Source of the DNA: a virus
Virus record (IMG/VR): IMGVR_UViG_3300043425_000189
Span: 1 to 29,687 of that record
Length of the DNA stretch: 29,687 nt
Reading direction: 5' to 3' (one strand)
Part shown: positions 715 to 29,687 of the stretch, in pieces
Layout of the letters: every line of letters starts with the position of its first letter
Position numbering within the stretch: the first letter of the stretch is position 1
Program-made: the position numbers and the translations under genes
Notes under the pieces: model-generated
What the model saw: the letters and a program-made list of their open reading frames with translations, nothing else
Told to the model about the DNA's origin: nothing
Database searches by the model: none

Positions 715-1146
715 CTAAAATAATCGACCAACTCCATCTAGGGAATTAATCACGTCTGTATTGTTATCGTAGTGGATTGCGATGTTTAAATCTTTAACCT
801 TCTGTATTTTTGCTTCGTTGCTCCCTGTGGCATATACCCTGCTGTGTGGTATTCCTAGTTTGTCTGCTGTTCCATACATTCCATCGGCTGATTCACGTGC
901 GCTGATAATATACACCACCGATCCGTTTGATATAAGTGCTTCTGCTCGCTTTTTTCCTCTCTCCGTAGACAATGTTCCATCGTAGTCAAATGAGACCTTC
1001 TGTCCTTCTAATTGAACGCGATAGGCATCGTAGCAGATTGCTGCTCTTTGCTCTTCTGGATACTCCGCTTTCATTTTTTCATCGGCCATGCATCGTTGCA
1101 TGAAGTCCGATTGCTTCTCATTGCTATTTGGTTTCGGTATCGGCAT
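715..1146 (-). CDS. HAD-like phosphatase with N-terminal MPIPKP domain
   Basis: The protein has 143 residues and two parts. Residues 1 to about 45 carry a short module (MPIPKPNSNEKQSDFMQRCM, then Tyr-Pro and an Arg-Ala-Ala-x-Cys segment) resembling a motif seen in phage head and portal-associated proteins. Residues 50-140 look like a small HAD-superfamily hydrolase: FDYDGTLS at 53-60 is motif I with the two Asp residues, YIISAR at about 79-84 fits motif II, and a later Lys followed by HYDNN fits motifs III and IV. A phosphatase or nucleotidase role is plausible, but the substrate is unknown. It overlaps the upstream gene by 23 bases and is followed directly by the methyltransferase. Confidence 0.75.
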   Translation of the reverse strand: MPIPKPNSNEKQSDFMQRCMADEKMKAEYPEEQRAAICYDAYRVQLEGQKVSFDYDGTLSTERGKKRAEALISNGSVVYIISARESADGMYGTADKLGIPHSRVYATGSNEAKIQKVKDLNIAIHYDNNTDVINSLDGVGRLF

Positions 1147-5577: not shown

Positions 5578-5801
5578 TGCTCTTCTAATTGATTCAGGTG
5601 ATTATAGATTTGTTCTGCTTCGCCATCCTTTAATGGGAGATGAAATAAACTGTCATGATATTTTCTGATAAACTCAATTGATTGCTGTTTCTCCATCTCC
5701 TTGGCTTCCTCAATTATTCTATTTAATTGCTGCCAGTCATCATCGAATAAAAATAGAAACTCATCCAATTCCTGACTTAACAATTCTACTGCTGTCTTCA
5801 T
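5574..5801 (-). CDS. QAKEMEK-family small protein, copy 1
   Basis: The product has 75 residues and belongs to a family with four members in this genome (5574-5801, 5998-6189, 9146-9379, 9376-9564). Members share a TAVEWL-like start (here TAVELLSQEL), a variable middle with a Trp, and a helix (Q/E)AKEMEK(E/Q)Q. At DNA level the start region (about 5771-5796) matches 9521-9546 at 25 of 26 positions, which argues for duplication or exchange between the two cassettes. Function is unknown. Coupling to neighbours is by ATGA overlaps. Confidence 0.6.
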   Translation of the reverse strand: MKTAVELLSQELDEFLFLFDDDWQQLNRIIEEAKEMEKQQSIEFIRKYHDSLFHLPLKDGEAEQIYNHLNQLEEQ

Positions 5802-6001
5802 TGTTGTTCTTTTTTAATTGAGTAAATACCTGTTTTCTTATTAAAAGACACCATGTCTTTATCTATAATCTTAACCTCGCTGATAAGTATTTTACAAGGC
5901 TCATCCATATACCAAATGTAATCAGTGTCTGATTCGTGAATCATTCCTACTTCACAGTACTCAGGTTTAATTCCTTGTGGTTGAAAATAAACTACATTCA
6001 T
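5798..6001 (-). CDS. small hypothetical protein (67 aa)
   Basis: The product has 67 residues, begins MNVVYFQPQGIKPEY and is mostly beta-like with several aromatic and acidic residues, ending in a basic tail (SIKKEQQ). I do not recognise it. It lies inside the ATGA-coupled cassette with 4-base overlaps at both ends and is more A+T-rich than the structural genes. Confidence 0.55.
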   Translation of the reverse strand: MNVVYFQPQGIKPEYCEVGMIHESDTDYIWYMDEPCKILISEVKIIDKDMVSFNKKTGIYSIKKEQQ

Positions 6002-13037: not shown

Positions 13038-13522
13038 CCAGTAAAAAAATTATCGTGCCGAGGGTACACATCGCCACTCTGGTTCGTATTGTATTCTGGG
13101 TATTGATATCCGTATGTGGTCATGTGATCGAGAAACCTTTGTGAATAGCTCTGTGCTATTTGTCGCTCCTTCTCCACCAAATAATCCACTTCTGTTTTTT
13201 CTACGTTCTCGGCATTCTCCGAGCTGTGTTTGTATACTCCTTTGTTTGCGATGGTGTAAGCTGCAAAAGGTAAATATTCAACCATAGCCCAGTGGATTAA
13301 AAGTGGTTTGACGTAAGTGACCACCAATGAAAGATACGGCTCGGCCAAGTCATCATTCAAAATGTCCGTTTGTATTTTCTGGAGTAAATTCGTTCCTAGA
13401 TAACCTTGCACATGGATGTCCTGCGCTATTTTAATAAATTGAATGAATTTATCTGTATCCACCGAACCTCCAAGGGCCGTAAGTGATACGATGTCGTTTC
13501 TGGATATGAGTAGTGCTTCCAT
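13025..13522 (-). CDS. DUF6712-type head-tail connector protein
   Basis: The product has 165 residues and has the layout of the DUF6712 family, a head-completion or adaptor protein in Bacteroidota phages. The helical segments (DKFIQFIKIAQDIHVQGYLG, then a long middle helix region) and a Tyr/Pro-rich C-terminus fit that fold. It follows the portal gene, sharing one base with its stop, where an adaptor is expected. It would bind the portal after DNA packaging. Confidence 0.75.
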   Translation of the reverse strand: MEALLISRNDIVSLTALGGSVDTDKFIQFIKIAQDIHVQGYLGTNLLQKIQTDILNDDLAEPYLSLVVTYVKPLLIHWAMVEYLPFAAYTIANKGVYKHSSENAENVEKTEVDYLVEKERQIAQSYSQRFLDHMTTYGYQYPEYNTNQSGDVYPRHDNFFTGWHL

Positions 13523-15306
13523 TATTTGCGTACGTCAGATGGTAAGTTTGGGTTATTTGGTGAGAAACCTTTGAGGGGTAATTGGTTCGGATAAAATGAA
13601 ACTTCGTAGGGGTTTGTAACTTTATATCCTTTGATCTCCGCAGCGCGAGTTCCTATCTCCTGATAACCATCCTCGATGCGGTTCAGGTCCAGCATGAAGG
13701 TCACTCTTTGCCATTTGTGGTGGCATCGCGGTCCTCCTTTAAACTTAAAAATGTCATAGGTATTTGCTCCATGTTCTCCGAATCCAGCGTTCACTGATTT
13801 TTTACTCATTGCATCGATGTCCTCCTTCCTGAACAAGCGGTCCTGTTTGGCCATCATTGCTTTGCAGAAGTCTCTCTCTGGGGTTTTGTTTCCAGTGTAT
13901 CTGTAGCGCACTTTGAAGTATTTTAATTCCTTCACATTTTTGTCCTGTGAGCTCTTTAATTTCGGCAGTGGGTTTCCTGTCTGCACTAGGTTGATAACCT
14001 TGCTTAAAAACGAAGTCTTGGGTTCTAGTGCGCTTTCTGATTCTATCAGGTGCTGGTCCAGTTGTTCGTCATCGTCTCCGACCTCTCTTTCATCAACAAG
14101 CACCCACTCATCCGATAACTGGTTGCGGTCCACCTCATCCAGTATTATTTGTAAGTCATTCTGGGATGATAATTGCATTTCCTCCACTTTGCCATCTGCT
14201 CCTTGGAACTCCAAAGGTTTCAATGTCTCAAAGTATAATTTTAATTTAATTCCGTTGAAAGCTAGTATCTGGTTGTAGGCATCAATGACTAGGTCCTGAT
14301 AAGGTCTAATAACCATATTGTAGTAAAGCACGAAGCTATTTTTTAGCTCATCCGCATTTGAGGAGAAACCGTTGCTGGAGGAAACTCCAAAAAGTAGCGG
14401 TGATGTAACGTTGTGGCCTAGCATGATCTTTCGCATGCACTCATCTGCAAGATATTCATAGTGCTGTGGTGCATCGTTCAATGGAATGTCATCGACTGTG
14501 GTCTTTTGTGCATCGGAATGATTAAATGAGACAATCACTCGCTTTCCTTTGCTCCCTGTCAGTTTGTTTGTAACCTTACTTTCGGTGTCATCCATCTCTT
14601 CTGGAGTAGGGATGCCATTATTGAAATTGATAATTTTTGTGCCTGAAAATCCATTTTGGACCTCATTGATAAGATAATCTGCGATCTCTTGCTCCAAGGT
14701 GCAATAAGGAAGAGAACCTTGGTAATCCACCAATGAAAAATATTTCATTCCTACCGAGTAGGGTTGCACCATTAAGATTTCAAGTGGTTCATTTGAAAGT
14801 CCGAACGCTGGAATTCGTTTTGGTTTAAACTTTTTGGTGTCGCTCCAATTGTCCGAGTAATAGTATGCTTCTATAACTCCATCTTTATTGCACTTCTCTG
14901 GTCTCAATAGCTGCACTGGTATGTGCGCTGTTTTGGCGATGGTCTTTCGGTCCTTTGCGTAGATAACTTGTATCGCAAATTGGCCCAGCATTTTCGCATC
15001 CATGATTTGTCGCTTCGTCTCATCCTTTGGAAACAAAGTGATCATGTTTGCGTATTCGTTTGGCTTGGCAGAAGCATCCAATGCGCGAAGTCCTCGGCCA
15101 TAAATCAAACGTGAAATATTATTTATGATCGCATTATTTGTAGGCGAGTAGGTGTAGCGGTCTATCAAATATTGATAGTAGGAGTCGTTCTCTCCGTAGG
15201 TCACCCAGTCCTCTCTGTTGCTTTCCTGAATAATTGGTGCTTGGTATTTCGATAGCTCCACCACTCGGATGTTATTGTATTTATTCTCCATAGGTAAGGA
15301 AGTCAT
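13522..15306 (-). CDS. portal protein
   Basis: The product has 594 residues, a length typical for portals with a C-terminal extension. The N-terminal half has the portal-like wing and stem features (NNAIINNISRLIYGRG, a helical crown region and many Asn/Asp loops). The C-terminal 130 residues (RYRYTGNKTPERDFC, later NAGFGEHG and GPRCHHKWQRV) resemble the minor-head or F-like part fused to some portals. It would form the dodecameric DNA channel and anchor the terminase. The ATG at 15306 is used; one at 15291 (MENKYNN) also fits and would still overlap the upstream gene. Confidence 0.85.
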   Translation of the reverse strand: MTSLPMENKYNNIRVVELSKYQAPIIQESNREDWVTYGENDSYYQYLIDRYTYSPTNNAIINNISRLIYGRGLRALDASAKPNEYANMITLFPKDETKRQIMDAKMLGQFAIQVIYAKDRKTIAKTAHIPVQLLRPEKCNKDGVIEAYYYSDNWSDTKKFKPKRIPAFGLSNEPLEILMVQPYSVGMKYFSLVDYQGSLPYCTLEQEIADYLINEVQNGFSGTKIINFNNGIPTPEEMDDTESKVTNKLTGSKGKRVIVSFNHSDAQKTTVDDIPLNDAPQHYEYLADECMRKIMLGHNVTSPLLFGVSSSNGFSSNADELKNSFVLYYNMVIRPYQDLVIDAYNQILAFNGIKLKLYFETLKPLEFQGADGKVEEMQLSSQNDLQIILDEVDRNQLSDEWVLVDEREVGDDDEQLDQHLIESESALEPKTSFLSKVINLVQTGNPLPKLKSSQDKNVKELKYFKVRYRYTGNKTPERDFCKAMMAKQDRLFRKEDIDAMSKKSVNAGFGEHGANTYDIFKFKGGPRCHHKWQRVTFMLDLNRIEDGYQEIGTRAAEIKGYKVTNPYEVSFYPNQLPLKGFSPNNPNLPSDVRK

Positions 15307-16339: not shown

Positions 16340-17290
16340 TTAGTCGATGAAGTAAACAACGCAATCCTCCAAGATGCCGATTTGAGTACCTGCTGTGAAT
16401 CGCATTACAAAACGAACATTTTGTGATCCATCGATGTTTGCCATGTCGATGATTTTCACCTCTTGGCTGTCATTCAACAATCCTGTTCCGAAGTACAAGT
16501 TATCTGAAGTTGTAGCCAACATCTCATTGTTCTGCAATCCGTTTGCTACGAAAACTGGAACTCCATCGAAAGACAAGCCAGCTCCTGCTCCGTACCATTG
16601 CGTTCCTTGAGCGTTTGTTCCTGCACCACCAACTCCTGCTGCTGCAAATCCACCCAATGCGCGAACGTATGCACGTGCTACATTTTGTGAAACATAAAGT
16701 TTCAAACCTTCCTTACCGTAAAGGCGAGCAGGGATTGCATCAACCACTTTGCCCATCTCCGCGATAACGTTTGAAGCAGTAATGGCAGTACCTCCTACAA
16801 CTTGTCCTGCAGGAATTCCTGTTCCTGCTTCTGCGATTGCCTGTGTGAAGATTCCTGTGAATTCTCCATTGTTTGCATTCGCTCCATGCCAGATGTTATT
16901 TTCTGTAGCTTCTGCTACTTGACCTAGCATTCGTGCCAAAAGGAAATCCTGAAAAGATTTAGGAAGTACATCGTATGCGCTGTAGCCCATTTCGATTGCG
17001 TTCCAATCCGAGCGGAAATCTTTTTTACAAAGAAGAACGTTAACGTCTAGCTCCTTTGGCTCGATTACTCGCTCCGTTAATGTGATTGTGCTGGATGCAG
17101 TGAAGTCGCATGAAGCATCTTTCAAAAGGTCCGAGCTATCGAAACGTTTGATCGTAGAACGAAACTTGATGTTAGGCATCACCTGAACTCCTCCGTTCTC
17201 GATGGTGTTTGCAGAAAGCAATGCAGCACCGATATATTTACCTGCTGATTCTCCTGCGTAAGTTGTTGTAATGTCTAATGTTGTAGCCAT
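16340..17290 (-). CDS. major capsid protein (HK97 fold)
   Basis: The product has 316 residues and is the best candidate for the major capsid protein. It has an N-arm (about 1-60), an E-loop-like region with FRSTIKRFDSSDLLKD, a P-domain with a long helix region around AYDVLPKSFQDFLLARML, and a Gly/Ala-rich A-domain segment (ALGGFAAAGVGGAGTNAQG) before the C-terminal strands (IGILEDCVVYF). It follows a scaffold-like gene and precedes a terminator, as expected for the most expressed gene. The protease upstream suggests maturation cleavage. Confidence 0.88.
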   Translation of the reverse strand: MATTLDITTTYAGESAGKYIGAALLSANTIENGGVQVMPNIKFRSTIKRFDSSDLLKDASCDFTASSTITLTERVIEPKELDVNVLLCKKDFRSDWNAIEMGYSAYDVLPKSFQDFLLARMLGQVAEATENNIWHGANANNGEFTGIFTQAIAEAGTGIPAGQVVGGTAITASNVIAEMGKVVDAIPARLYGKEGLKLYVSQNVARAYVRALGGFAAAGVGGAGTNAQGTQWYGAGAGLSFDGVPVFVANGLQNNEMLATTSDNLYFGTGLLNDSQEVKIIDMANIDGSQNVRFVMRFTAGTQIGILEDCVVYFID

Positions 17291-17311: not shown

Positions 17312-17905
17312 TTAATACAATTTATTTAATACTCTGTCTAGAGAGTCCTGTGCACGTTTTGTTCCGTACTTAAAGACCTCTGTTTTTTGTTCATTTTCTG
17401 GGTTGTAAGCGATTGGAGCAACTGCTGGTGTAGATAGCTCCACTTTTTTACTTTCGAGCTCTGTAACAAGCGCATCCTTCTCTGCTTTCAATGCTGCAAG
17501 CTCGGCCTTGATCGTTTCCAATTCAGAAGAGAAGTGATGTTCTTTAACCACTGATTCAATGGTGCGCTTTGGCTGTCTGTCAGTAGTTTCATTTGCTGCT
17601 TCTACTGGAGCTTCCTCTGGTGCTTCTGGTGTCACTTCCTCCTCCTCGGCTGCTGCTTCCTTGATCTCTTCGATAATTCCTTCTGTAGCCACTACGAGAA
17701 TCATTCCATTTTCAAGTTCGTATTCGCCTACTGGAACTGGTACGTTTCCATCTGGTGTAACAACGTACACCTCCATTCCTGCTTCGAATGCATCCGCTTC
17801 TAAAACGGTCACTCCATCAGCTAACTTCATTTGTGCGAGTTCAATCACTACGGCCTTGCCTAGAATGATCTTTCCAATTGCTGCTAGTTTTTCTTTAGTT
17901 GTCAT
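17312..17905 (-). CDS. scaffold-like protein
   Basis: The product has 197 residues. Residues 1-80 form a beta-rich domain (AVVIELAQMKLADGVTVLEA, then PVPVGEYELENGMILVV), 84-105 are acidic, 125-157 form a coiled coil (AELAALKAEKDALVTELESK), and the C-terminus ends in VLNKLY. An acidic, helical protein with a conserved C-terminal peptide just before the capsid gene fits a scaffolding protein. IELA (21-24) and VELS (155-158) match motifs in the two preceding genes and are possible protease sites. It could also be a prohead-internal component. Confidence 0.7.
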   Translation of the reverse strand: MTTKEKLAAIGKIILGKAVVIELAQMKLADGVTVLEADAFEAGMEVYVVTPDGNVPVPVGEYELENGMILVVATEGIIEEIKEAAAEEEEVTPEAPEEAPVEAANETTDRQPKRTIESVVKEHHFSSELETIKAELAALKAEKDALVTELESKKVELSTPAVAPIAYNPENEQKTEVFKYGTKRAQDSLDRVLNKLY

Positions 17906-17912
17906 TTGCTTA

Positions 17913-18314
17913 TTATTTACCTAGTGTAGAAATAGTATTTTTAATGTTATCAAAAGAATCTTGGATTTGACCTAGAAACTGATAAGCATCTTGAATACTT
18001 TTAAATACTTGTGTAGATTTAGGATCAACTCCCATATCTGCAGCTAATTTGTTAAGGTTATTTGAAATAGAATCTACTTTAGAAGTTTTAACCTTAGCGT
18101 AATTCAAATTTTGACCGATATTTTTGTATGCAGCATTTAACTGCTCAGCAGCTTTAACGATTTTATTATTTGCATCGTTAGCCATTTTAAGCATCTGATT
18201 AATAGATTTCAATTCTGATGCGATTTCATCAGTAACTGCTAAATCTACTTTAACCTCTGCAAGCTCCACCTTGCTTTCAATGCGAGCAAGTTTGTTTAGT
18301 ACGTCTTTGTTCAT
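17913..18314 (-). CDS. coiled-coil protein with scaffold-like N-terminal peptide
   Basis: The product has 133 residues: MNKDVLNKLARIESKVELAE, then VKVDLAVTDEIASELKSIN and a helical remainder. VLNKL is repeated at the C-terminus of the scaffold-like protein, and VELA (16-19) resembles its IELA. The gene is visibly richer in A+T than the neighbouring capsid and protease genes. The probable paralog is 18320-18673. A role as an internal capsid (cargo) protein, targeted by the N-terminal peptide, is my inference; other readings are a head chaperone or a minor scaffold. Confidence 0.6.
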   Translation of the reverse strand: MNKDVLNKLARIESKVELAEVKVDLAVTDEIASELKSINQMLKMANDANNKIVKAAEQLNAAYKNIGQNLNYAKVKTSKVDSISNNLNKLAADMGVDPKSTQVFKSIQDAYQFLGQIQDSFDNIKNTISTLGK

Positions 18315-18319
18315 CTGTT

Positions 18320-18673
18320 TTATTTTAATTTTCGAAGTCCATCTACTCGATCAAAAACTCCTTGAATGTCATATCGAATGAGTAAATCCTTGGCGGCTTT
18401 ATAATCTTTATTTTCGTTAACATCAATACCTAACTCTTTTGCTTTTGCTTCAAATTGTTTCAATGCATTTTCTATTTGAGCTGCATTTTTGTAATATCCT
18501 TCTCCTGCTGTAATTGCTTGGTTCTTTTGAGCATCAATAATTTTATATGCCGCTAGAAAACCATCGATTGATTTGCTGGCTACATCATATGATTTTTTAA
18601 TGTCATCAACAATTGCCAGCTCCACTTGGATCTCTTCGCCTTTGTAGAGTTTTGATAAAACGTTCTTCTCCAT
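18320..18673 (-). CDS. coiled-coil protein, paralog of 17913-18314
   Basis: The product has 117 residues: MEKNVLSKLYKGEEIQVELA, then IVDDIKKSYDVASKSID. It has the same N-terminal plan as 17913-18314 (VLSKL, VELA, then an acidic DDI/DEI segment), with related but divergent bodies: both have an (A/K)xE/DxG(I/V)D segment (AKELGIDVNE here, AADMGVDPKS there). Both genes are AT-rich and lie between the protease and the scaffold-like gene. The function is not known. Confidence 0.6.
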   Translation of the reverse strand: MEKNVLSKLYKGEEIQVELAIVDDIKKSYDVASKSIDGFLAAYKIIDAQKNQAITAGEGYYKNAAQIENALKQFEAKAKELGIDVNENKDYKAAKDLLIRYDIQGVFDRVDGLRKLK

Positions 18674-18711: not shown

Positions 18712-18888
18712 CTAGTTGCGGATAATCTGGCGGACTACTATGGTCTGCTGCTTGGTGGTGTTATGTCCTCCTTCAAGTGCACCGATGCCCTGTGCAGAAA
18801 GTTCTCCTGTGCAACATTTTGAGGAGTAGGTATTGTCCTTGCATAGGCATCCGCGTTTCCCTCCTCTTGGACTTGATTTCGATTTCAT
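18712..18888 (-). CDS. small Cys-rich conserved protein (58 aa)
   Basis: The product has 58 residues: MKSKSSPRGGKRGCLCKDNT, then YSSKCCTGELSAQGIG and a polar tail. The segment RGCLCxDxTYSxKCC is a pattern I recognise from small proteins of Bacteroidota phage structural modules; the four cysteines may bind a metal. The ATG shares one base with the stop of the preceding gene (TAATG). It is short enough to be missed by length filters. Function unknown. Confidence 0.65.
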   Translation of the reverse strand: MKSKSSPRGGKRGCLCKDNTYSSKCCTGELSAQGIGALEGGHNTTKQQTIVVRQIIRN

Positions 18889-19511
18889 TAGAATGCTTGT
18901 TGAATAGTGAATTTAGCACCCCAAACTTTCCCTGCATGCGATGGGAAGATGTATAGTTTGATTCCTTCTGCTGTGCTGCTGTCACCTACAATTTGAAATG
19001 TTCTTGTAAATTCGTGCGCAACCCCGTTGCCTTTGGCATAAATTAAAACATCTGAATCACCATTGTAAGGGATTCCAGAATAGCCAAAAAATAACTGTGC
19101 GTGCGCATTGTTTGTCGTTACTAACGAAGTGAATGAAAGTGTAACGGTATAAATTGTTCCTTCTCTAAAGAAAAATTGACGGCCATCATAACAACCCATT
19201 GTTCCTAATGAAGTTCCTACATTATTCATTACCACTTGTTCAACTGCGTTTATATTTTGAGCATTATTTGTATTCGTGTGGTCAGTATCATACGCAACTT
19301 GATAGCCGTTTTGATAGGTAGGTATATCATTCATTGTGGCCAGTTGCACCCATCCTTCTCCATCACCAATAAAAGGAGAACCTTGGACAGAAATCAATGC
19401 ACCAACTTCAGGAACATTTGTAAAAAATTGCTCCTCTGTATTGACCTGCTCCAGCTGATTGTCAAACTGGGAGTTTCGTGTTTGTCTCTCTTCGATGTTC
19501 TGGTTTATCAT
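18888..19511 (-). CDS. putative virion appendage protein
   Basis: The product has 207 residues. After a polar N-terminus (MINQNIEERQTRNSQFDNQL), the rest is beta-rich with Thr/Asn/Gly and aromatic residues (QFFFREGTIYTVTLSFTSL, then AQLFFGYSGIPYNGDSD and AGKVWGAKFTIQQAF), the look of a jelly-roll or decoration domain. It lies between the protease and the small Cys-rich gene and is ATGA-coupled to the protease. It may decorate the head or act as a fibre; no family is certain. Confidence 0.55.
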   Translation of the reverse strand: MINQNIEERQTRNSQFDNQLEQVNTEEQFFTNVPEVGALISVQGSPFIGDGEGWVQLATMNDIPTYQNGYQVAYDTDHTNTNNAQNINAVEQVVMNNVGTSLGTMGCYDGRQFFFREGTIYTVTLSFTSLVTTNNAHAQLFFGYSGIPYNGDSDVLIYAKGNGVAHEFTRTFQIVGDSSTAEGIKLYIFPSHAGKVWGAKFTIQQAF

Positions 19512-20086
19512 TGTTCTAAAATTTGTAAGATTGCTTTCAAGATATCCTCATCTGTTCTCTGGGCAGATAACGTTGCTTCCTTTGGTTCGAAGTATCCTTC
19601 AATGGAGAAACCTTTGATCTCTCCAGCTTTAACTTTATTCCAGACCTCATCATTATCGACCTTCATTGAAATCATCCACGTTCCTACTGGAAGTGAAAAA
19701 TTGTAGAGGGCAGATTTGTCCATCTTCTCATCCTCGATTATCCAACTTTCAACAACCGACATTCCATCAATTTTCATCTGGTGCTCATAGGTAGCATTGT
19801 TCTGGTTTGATCGCTTTAAGAAAATTTGCGATGCTTGGCGGATTGTATCCTTGGAGAAATAAATATAAAATTCTCCATGCTCTTTGTCCTTGCGATAGAT
19901 TTGCTTGTTTGGAACAAGGGCCGCACCCATAAGGATTCGCTTCTCTTCATCGATTGCTTTCAATTCAACGTATTGCTTATTTAAAGCGATCCAGTTCTCC
20001 TCAATTGCTGGAGACTCAACAACGGAGACCGCATGGATTCCATGTTTGACGTTCTCCTCATTTAATACCATTTCGATTATATTCAT
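19508..20086 (-). CDS. XkdF-like prohead protease
   Basis: The product has 192 residues and resembles the XkdF-type putative serine proteases found before phage scaffold and capsid genes. Conserved segments include GAALVPNKQIYRKD at 54-67, FYIYFSKDTIRQAS, a His in TYEHQM, SVVESWIIEDEK, and KAGEIKGFSIEGYF, where the Ser (in GFSIEG) and the His are likely catalytic. It would process scaffold and other prohead proteins during maturation. It lies upstream of the scaffold-like and capsid genes, as expected. Catalytic residues are assigned by pattern only. Confidence 0.8.
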   Translation of the reverse strand: MNIIEMVLNEENVKHGIHAVSVVESPAIEENWIALNKQYVELKAIDEEKRILMGAALVPNKQIYRKDKEHGEFYIYFSKDTIRQASQIFLKRSNQNNATYEHQMKIDGMSVVESWIIEDEKMDKSALYNFSLPVGTWMISMKVDNDEVWNKVKAGEIKGFSIEGYFEPKEATLSAQRTDEDILKAILQILEQ

Positions 20087-28962: not shown

Positions 28963-29687
28963 TTATTTCGCTTCTGGTTCTGTAGGCAGAATGTACTCCT
29001 CTCCGTTTCTTTTAATCTTCAAGTCTGGATCTAGTTTAATCATTCGTTCCAGAATCACTTGGCAATATCGAGGATCTAGTTCCAAGCCATAACACCTTCT
29101 GTTTAATTGGTGAGCTGCTACCATTGTTGAACCGCTCCCTAGGAATGCATCGCCTACTATTTCATTCTCTTTGCTGCTGTTCTCGATTAAAGGTGCAAGC
29201 AGGAGGATTGGTTTCATTGTTGGGTGTATGTCATTCTTTACTGGTTTGTCTGCTCGGAGAATTGTTGTTTTGACATCCTCTGATAACATCTCTGTGAGCA
29301 TCTTTTGGAGTTCGATTTTGCTTAATTTTTTAATGTCGATTTTGTCCTCGATGACTGTTGTTCTGGTTCTATCATTTCCGAAGTAGTGAGCTGCTCCTGC
29401 TTTCCATCCATATAGGCATGGTTCGTGTTTCCACTGGTAGTCTTGCCTACCCATCACTAAACTATTTTTTACCCAGATAAGGCATTGCTTCACTAAAAGT
29501 CCAGAGTCCTGCATCGCTCTCCTGAAGTTTGCACCTTCGATATCTGCATGCCATACATACCACGCTCCTCCTTTCTTTGTGTATGCTCCAAGTGCTGTAT
29601 AGAAATCGTACAGGAATTGATAAAATGCAGAGTCTCCCATGCTGTCATTCATGATCGTTAATGCTTCCTTCGTTTCTCCTTGGTAAT
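28963..29687 (-). CDS. ParB-domain DNA methyltransferase, C-terminal part
   Basis: This is the remaining part of the gene that starts at 710, in frame across the terminal repeat (the last 139 bases duplicate 1-139). The SAM-binding motif FLGSGS corresponds to residues 372-377 of the full protein, followed by AAHQLNRRCYGLELDPRYC. It carries Glu at the mismatch position 29675, where the left copy has Gly195. The stop lies 18 bases before the small terminase gene. Confidence 0.9.
   Translation of the reverse strand, partial: YQGETKEALTIMNDSMGDSAFYQFLYDFYTALGAYTKKGGAWYVWHADIEGANFRRAMQDSGLLVKQCLIWVKNSLVMGRQDYQWKHEPCLYGWKAGAAHYFGNDRTRTTVIEDKIDIKKLSKIELQKMLTEMLSEDVKTTILRADKPVKNDIHPTMKPILLLAPLIENSSKENEIVGDAFLGSGSTMVAAHQLNRRCYGLELDPRYCQVILERMIKLDPDLKIKRNGEEYILPTEPEAK
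29549..29687. repeat. terminal direct repeat, right copy
   Basis: This is the right copy of the 139-base repeat described at 1-139, with one mismatch at 29675. Removing one copy gives a unique circular length of 29,548 bases. Confidence 0.95.

Follow-up and report, generated by a model that had tools for sequence, protein, structure and literature searches.

The internal proteins Ip1, Ip2 and Ip3 of phage T4 have only a leader in common; they show no homology beyond it and block different GmrSD enzymes (PMC12373910, PMC3012670). A short conserved leader is thus carried by dissimilar small proteins, and both the set and the number of these proteins vary between related phages (PMC12373910, PMC3012670, PMC7697877). 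In phage P1, an N-terminal signal directs the Dar proteins into the head (PMC9024508). In SPN3US and phiKZ, the prohead protease removes N-terminal propeptides from internal proteins, the portal and other proteins, with a preference for valine at P4 (PMC10052503). Head cargo in a Bacteroidota phage is described for a crassvirus, namely gp45, gp46 and RNA polymerase (PMC10172136).

Here we describe a locus of siphophage-type Bacteroidota viruses in which two small genes, A and B, occupy a variable slot next to the scaffold gene. Two features of the T4 type were found: a conserved leader sits on unlike bodies, and the leader is under amino acid selection. Two others were not, as the protease does not belong to the gp21 family and the slot proteins did not match a known internal-protein family in Pfam, PHROGs or PADLOC. 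The T4 protease is gp21, whereas the protease here belongs to Peptidase_S78_2. The slot leader is also longer than that of T4 (≈ 28 residues), contains VEL(A/S) repeats and resembles the C-terminus of the scaffold. A single helical plan is common to the slot bodies, in contrast to those of Ip1-3, and packaging of the slot proteins is putative. The best reading by analogy is that the slot system would work like the T4 internal proteins while being unrelated to them by sequence or protease family. The Dar proteins differ in that they are a fixed set of antirestriction proteins, some of them very large, whereas the slot proteins are small and hypervariable. SPN3US and phiKZ are giant myoviruses with another protease, another motif and conserved internal proteins. 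The crassvirus cargo proteins are large and broadly conserved, and a short shared leader is not described in the available part of that report.

The window analyzed is the whole record of an uncultured virus (IMG/VR IMGVR_UViG_3300043425_000189; 29,687 nucleotides, 29.7 kb). Its ends (1-139 and 29549-29687) have an overlap of 139 bp that is 99% identical, and the record is therefore probably a complete, circularly assembled genome; a single mismatch masks the exact terminal repeat. The genes of the head module are ordered portal, p121, p179, major capsid protein, scaffold, B, A, a 58-aa Cys-rich gene, a fibre-like gene, the XkdF protease and the tape measure. The same order is kept in relatives found via the scaffold; the group is one of uncultured, lake-type Bacteroidota phages. 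The 58-aa protein is encoded directly upstream of the slot in nearly all of these relatives. It has no Pfam or PHROG match and may be a small virion or assembly protein that binds metal. Coordinates are given in Table 1.

Table 1. Features of the head module (positions in the window; all on the minus strand)
Feature	Position	Strand	Remark
Portal protein	13522..15306	-	phrog_33693, E 1.2e-98
Portal N-terminal VELS, residues 16-19	15250..15261	-	in relatives conserved as (V/I)xL(A/S)xY
Major capsid protein	16340..17290	-	inferred from phrog_11320/phrog_1623 and synteny
Scaffold-like protein, 197 aa	17312..17905	-	N-terminal helix, beta domain, acidic linker, coiled coil, C-terminal helix
Scaffold C-terminal DRVLNKLY, residues 190-197	17315..17338	-	in predicted helix 188-196
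Scaffold VELS, residues 155-158	17432..17443	-	directly after coiled coil in model
Scaffold IELA, residues 21-24	17834..17845	-	start of beta domain
Slot gene B, 133 aa	17913..18314	-	long helix, LG turn, helix; begins MNKDVLNKLARIESKVELAEVKVDLAVTDEI...
Variable body of B	17916..18227	-	same body family on other N-termini in L002, L017, L090, L095
Putative address region of B, residues 1-29	18228..18314	-	MNKDVLNKLARIESKVELAEVKVDLAVTD
VDLA of B, residues 23-26	18237..18248	-	proposed cut motif 2; borders conserved part
VELA of B, residues 16-19	18258..18269	-	proposed cut motif 1
VLNKL of B, residues 5-9	18288..18302	-	
Slot gene A, 117 aa	18320..18673	-	coiled-coil protein with putative N-terminal address plan; begins MEKNVLSKLYKGEEIQVELAIVDDI...
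Putative address region of A, residues 1-24	18602..18673	-	MEKNVLSKLYKGEEIQVELAIVDD
VELA of A, residues 17-20	18614..18625	-	proposed protease cut motif
VLSKL of A, residues 5-9	18647..18661	-	like scaffold C-terminus
Cys-rich gene, 58 aa	18712..18888	-	usual upstream edge of variable slot; begins MKSKSSPRGGKRGCLCKDNTYSSKCC... / GCLCKDNTYSSKCC...
Head maturation protease, Peptidase_S78_2 (XkdF)	19508..20086	-	E 5.7e-19
Protease C-tail ATLS, residues 171-174	19565..19576	-	TELS, EELS or TKLS in relatives
Protease VELK, residues 40-43	19958..19969	-	upstream flank of catalytic domain

Both A and B are open reading frames with the plan M-x-K-x-VLxKL … VELA … D(D/E), as the initial annotation had it. 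That annotation also placed a VELA at about the same position in the two proteins. The motif is indeed present in both, but B has two tandem copies, VELA and VDLA, and the single VELA of A aligns with the second of these. The 5' ends of the genes have a higher GC content than the remainder (0.41 in the first 66 nt of A versus 0.32 in the rest; 0.39 in the first 84 nt of B versus 0.29). We propose, with a probability that we put at roughly two in three, that A and B are interchangeable proteins, small, basic and helical, each headed by a cleavable peptide that addresses it to the capsid, that they sit in a payload slot of the head module, and that the body is probably ejected with the DNA. The first ≈ 28 residues of each would be the address.

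Among 23 non-redundant slot proteins, the median pairwise identity was 0.54 in the N-terminus and 0.23 in the body, the latter compared with 0.21 for shuffled bodies. In 20 pairs with an N-terminus identity > 0.8, body identity was still 0.24. The conserved stretch covers approximately the first 28 residues of the 44 distinct proteins, which fall into about 30 body families at 38% identity. The break is also visible in the DNA. In pairs with near-identical scaffolds, DNA identity was mostly 0.8-1.0 up to ≈ bp 84 and ≈ 0.2-0.6 across the body, with a return to high values from the stop codon onwards; the break lies directly after codon 28. One body is common to B of the window, L002, L017 and L090/L095, where it follows different N-termini; other bodies are shared by A and L006, by L009 and L087, and by L011 and L037. 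The N-terminus correlated with scaffold lineage (Mantel r = 0.585; body, r = 0.154), the permutation p-values being optimistic for related sequences such as these. The expectation that the peptide would be better conserved than the bodies was thus borne out by identity, by the sharp DNA boundary and by the tracking of lineage, and the bodies are evidently swapped between lineages.

Members of one lineage have almost the same DNA in the first 84 bp, which can therefore serve as homology for exchange. This would also fit a conserved 5' end that is a DNA or RNA element, such as a recombination arm or a translation signal, instead of a functional peptide. The peptide, however, is kept at near-saturated synonymous sites: pS was 0.66 and pN 0.22 across lineages (12 N-termini), and the corresponding values in the H-type lineage were 0.57 and 0.08. 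Since amino acids are kept while synonymous sites approach saturation, we judge that purifying selection acts on the leader peptide rather than on the DNA, and we consider the nucleic acid element extremely improbable.

Slot occupancy was counted in the 41 scaffold-selected loci in which the 58-aa gene can be seen. Taken as the interval from that gene to the scaffold, the slot holds no ORF in 12 loci, one in 19 and two in 10. The plan is present in 38 of 39 slot ORFs of the scaffold-selected loci. A helix plus a VELA motif within the first 36 residues was found in 43 of 44 slot proteins versus 7 of 372 control ORFs, the expression applied to the slot being slightly wider. With the 33-residue peptide as the only query, IMG/VR yielded 47 loci, and in each of the 13 new loci inspected, the peptide is carried by slot proteins within the same head module. 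Two slot genes, both with the plan, are also present in L097, a distant relative in a Bacteroidetes MAG. Nonlabens phage P12024S has no slot; its 349-aa protease-scaffold protein is directly followed by the next head gene. A prophage search of 395 Bacteroidota genomes gave three matches: the L097 genome, L099, where the match lies outside any recognizable head module, and L100, which has a ClpP-scaffold fusion and no slot gene. No match to A or B was found by tblastn in 50,697 phage records.

The address peptide resembles the scaffold. As proposed initially, VLNKLY is the extreme C-terminus of the scaffold, and IELA and VELS are also present in this protein. In the proteome of the window, VL[NS]KL occurs three times (0.01 expected), in A, in B and within the final six residues of the scaffold. 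When a position-specific matrix for VLxKL was built solely from other loci, the scaffold C-terminus was the best 8-mer outside the slot; it came third among 8,148, with only A and B themselves above it. Profile-profile alignment by hhalign independently paired cargo residues 4-14 with scaffold residues 188-198 at a modest P of 0.022. The cargo-free loci L039-L050 still have a VLxKL-like scaffold C-terminus, and this peptide is therefore independent of cargo. The scaffold VELS is conserved as (V/T/L)EL(S/N) in most relatives and is absent from L039-L050. The scaffold IELA is a weaker candidate cut site because some relatives have VKLE instead. By eye, the N-terminus of the scaffold (helix plus VELA strand) is also similar to the address peptide. 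We did not adopt it as the source, since the C-terminus is the better match in profile comparison and the HMM of the slot N-termini favours the C-linker VELS and the protease.

The scaffold is a homologue of the C-terminal portion of proteins in which protease and scaffold are fused (phrog_24921, Nonlabens phage P12024S). Its beta domain forms one protein with an XkdF protease in P12024S (L055:179-1228) and with a ClpP-like protease in L100 (751-1875); one scaffold type is thus combined with two protease families.

The protease of the window is a member of Peptidase_S78_2 (PF14550, 68.8 bits; gathering cut-off 24). The motif [VI]EL[AS] occurs five times in the 8,421-aa proteome of the window, compared with 0.85 expected from shuffles. 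All five lie in head proteins, against an expectation of 0.27 for these proteins, and none of 500 shuffles placed more than two there. An HMM of the slot N-terminus was searched against the 708 non-slot ORFs of the same loci, of which 86 are protease or scaffold. Of the 34 top matches, 33 were protease or scaffold, and the remaining one was an odd slot protein of L015. Outside the slot the matches were individually weak (best E 0.018) but notably specific, and the 33 count as two families rather than 33 events because they are homologous within each family. The aligned sites are in the scaffold linker past the coiled coil (VELS), just before the catalytic domain of the protease (e.g. VKLSKQKMELATVD) and in the protease C-tail (SKTELS). 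The scaffold-linker and protease-flank sites are where scaffold cleavage and self-cleavage would be expected. In the H-type lineage, both scaffold and cargo have KTELS. Motif counts and HMM matches together support the earlier suggestion of a VEL(A/S) signature common to slot proteins, scaffold and protease. The portal VELS (16-19) and protease VELK (40-43) that had been listed with it were found as well, and these may be ordinary structural residues.

The motifs are short and the profile significance is modest, as would be seen if the VLxKL and VELA likeness between scaffold and slot proteins were due to chance and the slot were tied to the head by gene position only. Such a coincidence is highly improbable in view of the concentration of HMM matches in protease and scaffold, the restriction of [VI]EL[AS] to head proteins and the tracking of scaffold lineage by the N-terminus.

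The slot protein of L015 (5275-5616) has an ILKKLA N-terminus and consists of a domain, RAQQLANxExxSxxTIKRMYSYLSRAE...WGG (phrog_2859), that is fused to the C-terminus of the protease in L039-L050 (e.g. L042:4697-5605) and in L054. It is as if the address had replaced a covalent fusion.

These similarities suggest how a cleavable address could work. The short helix K-x-V-L-x-K-L/M, being like the C-terminal anchor of the scaffold, would recruit the protein into the assembling prohead, at the inner shell or the scaffold lattice. The XkdF-type protease would then cut at the V-(E/D)-L-(A/S) motifs, of which one or two follow the helix, and would likewise cut the C-linker of the scaffold and its own sequence on either side of the catalytic domain. 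The body, which is small, basic, helical and free of Cys, would thereby be released inside the head, stay with the DNA and probably be ejected with it. If this is correct, a cleavage motif can be predicted for head proteases of the XkdF type; neither a cut site of these enzymes nor such a locus was found described in the open-licence papers searched. The peptide would also provide a sequence handle for finding injected effectors of uncultured phages. A possible role against host defence is suggested only by the diversity of the bodies and by the T4 precedent. More tentatively, and with somewhat less than even odds, the locus may represent an independent modular virion-delivery system of Bacteroidota siphophages, in which a ≈ 28-residue, scaffold-anchor-like peptide bearing the cut sites loads exchangeable effectors, diversified as cassettes against host defences, for injection. 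Variable proteins that share a cleavable leader and are packaged and injected would then be no peculiarity of T4, having arisen separately in small-genome Bacteroidota phages.

The AlphaFold model of B consists of two helices, the first of them long, that are joined by a turn at LG, with pLDDT mostly > 85 in the body and about 70 in residues 1-30. An LG-type turn is present in all 44 bodies, 28-46 residues before the C-terminus, and the bodies therefore probably represent one fast-diversifying architecture rather than arbitrary payloads. They are Lys-rich (13.9% versus 7.2%; median pI 9.0) and practically free of Cys and His, with Cys in only 1 of 44. For 43 slot proteins, the matches in Pfam, PHROGs and PADLOC were scattered coiled-coil background, and we therefore did not assign a function to any body. 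A sequence search of the PDB also returned coiled-coil background. Foldseek against viral models gave one clear match for B, an uncultured Caudovirales protein of 59% identity that has no assigned function.

The common helix-turn-helix plan, the position of the slot beside the scaffold and the peptide shared with scaffold and protease would all suit accessory scaffold or core proteins, whose N-terminus binds the shell or scaffold while the body provides helical bulk in the prohead core and is not delivered. We regard this as unlikely. The slot genes are dispensable, as there are 0, 1 or 2 per locus, and alleles are exchanged as discrete cassettes. Furthermore, pairs that share a body show amino acid constraint (pN 0.15-0.26 versus pS about 0.6), which does not fit mere bulk, and the bodies are basic whereas the scaffold linker is acidic.

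Alternatively, the N-terminus could anchor A and B on the virion exterior as decoration or head-fibre proteins with bodies that vary for surface binding. A conserved anchor on a variable body is typical of fibres, and the adjoining fibre-like gene is also strongly length-variable among relatives. The motif partners of the slot proteins, however, are the protease and the scaffold, which are both internal; the bodies are predicted to contain helices only, with no beta-rich binding domain, and the proposed cut motifs would free an external body. An exterior location is thus very unlikely, and a cleavable address for interior cargo remains our preferred reading.

The fibre-like gene itself (18888-19511, minus strand) adjoins the protease gene. 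Its product ranges from ≈ 200 to 431 aa among relatives with a conserved N-terminal part, and the gene is a second variable locus that probably encodes a head fibre. In L097, a short HAD-like protein (FDYDGTLST...) is encoded between protease and slot (5647-5940), and a similar sequence is found in another module of the window (715-1146).
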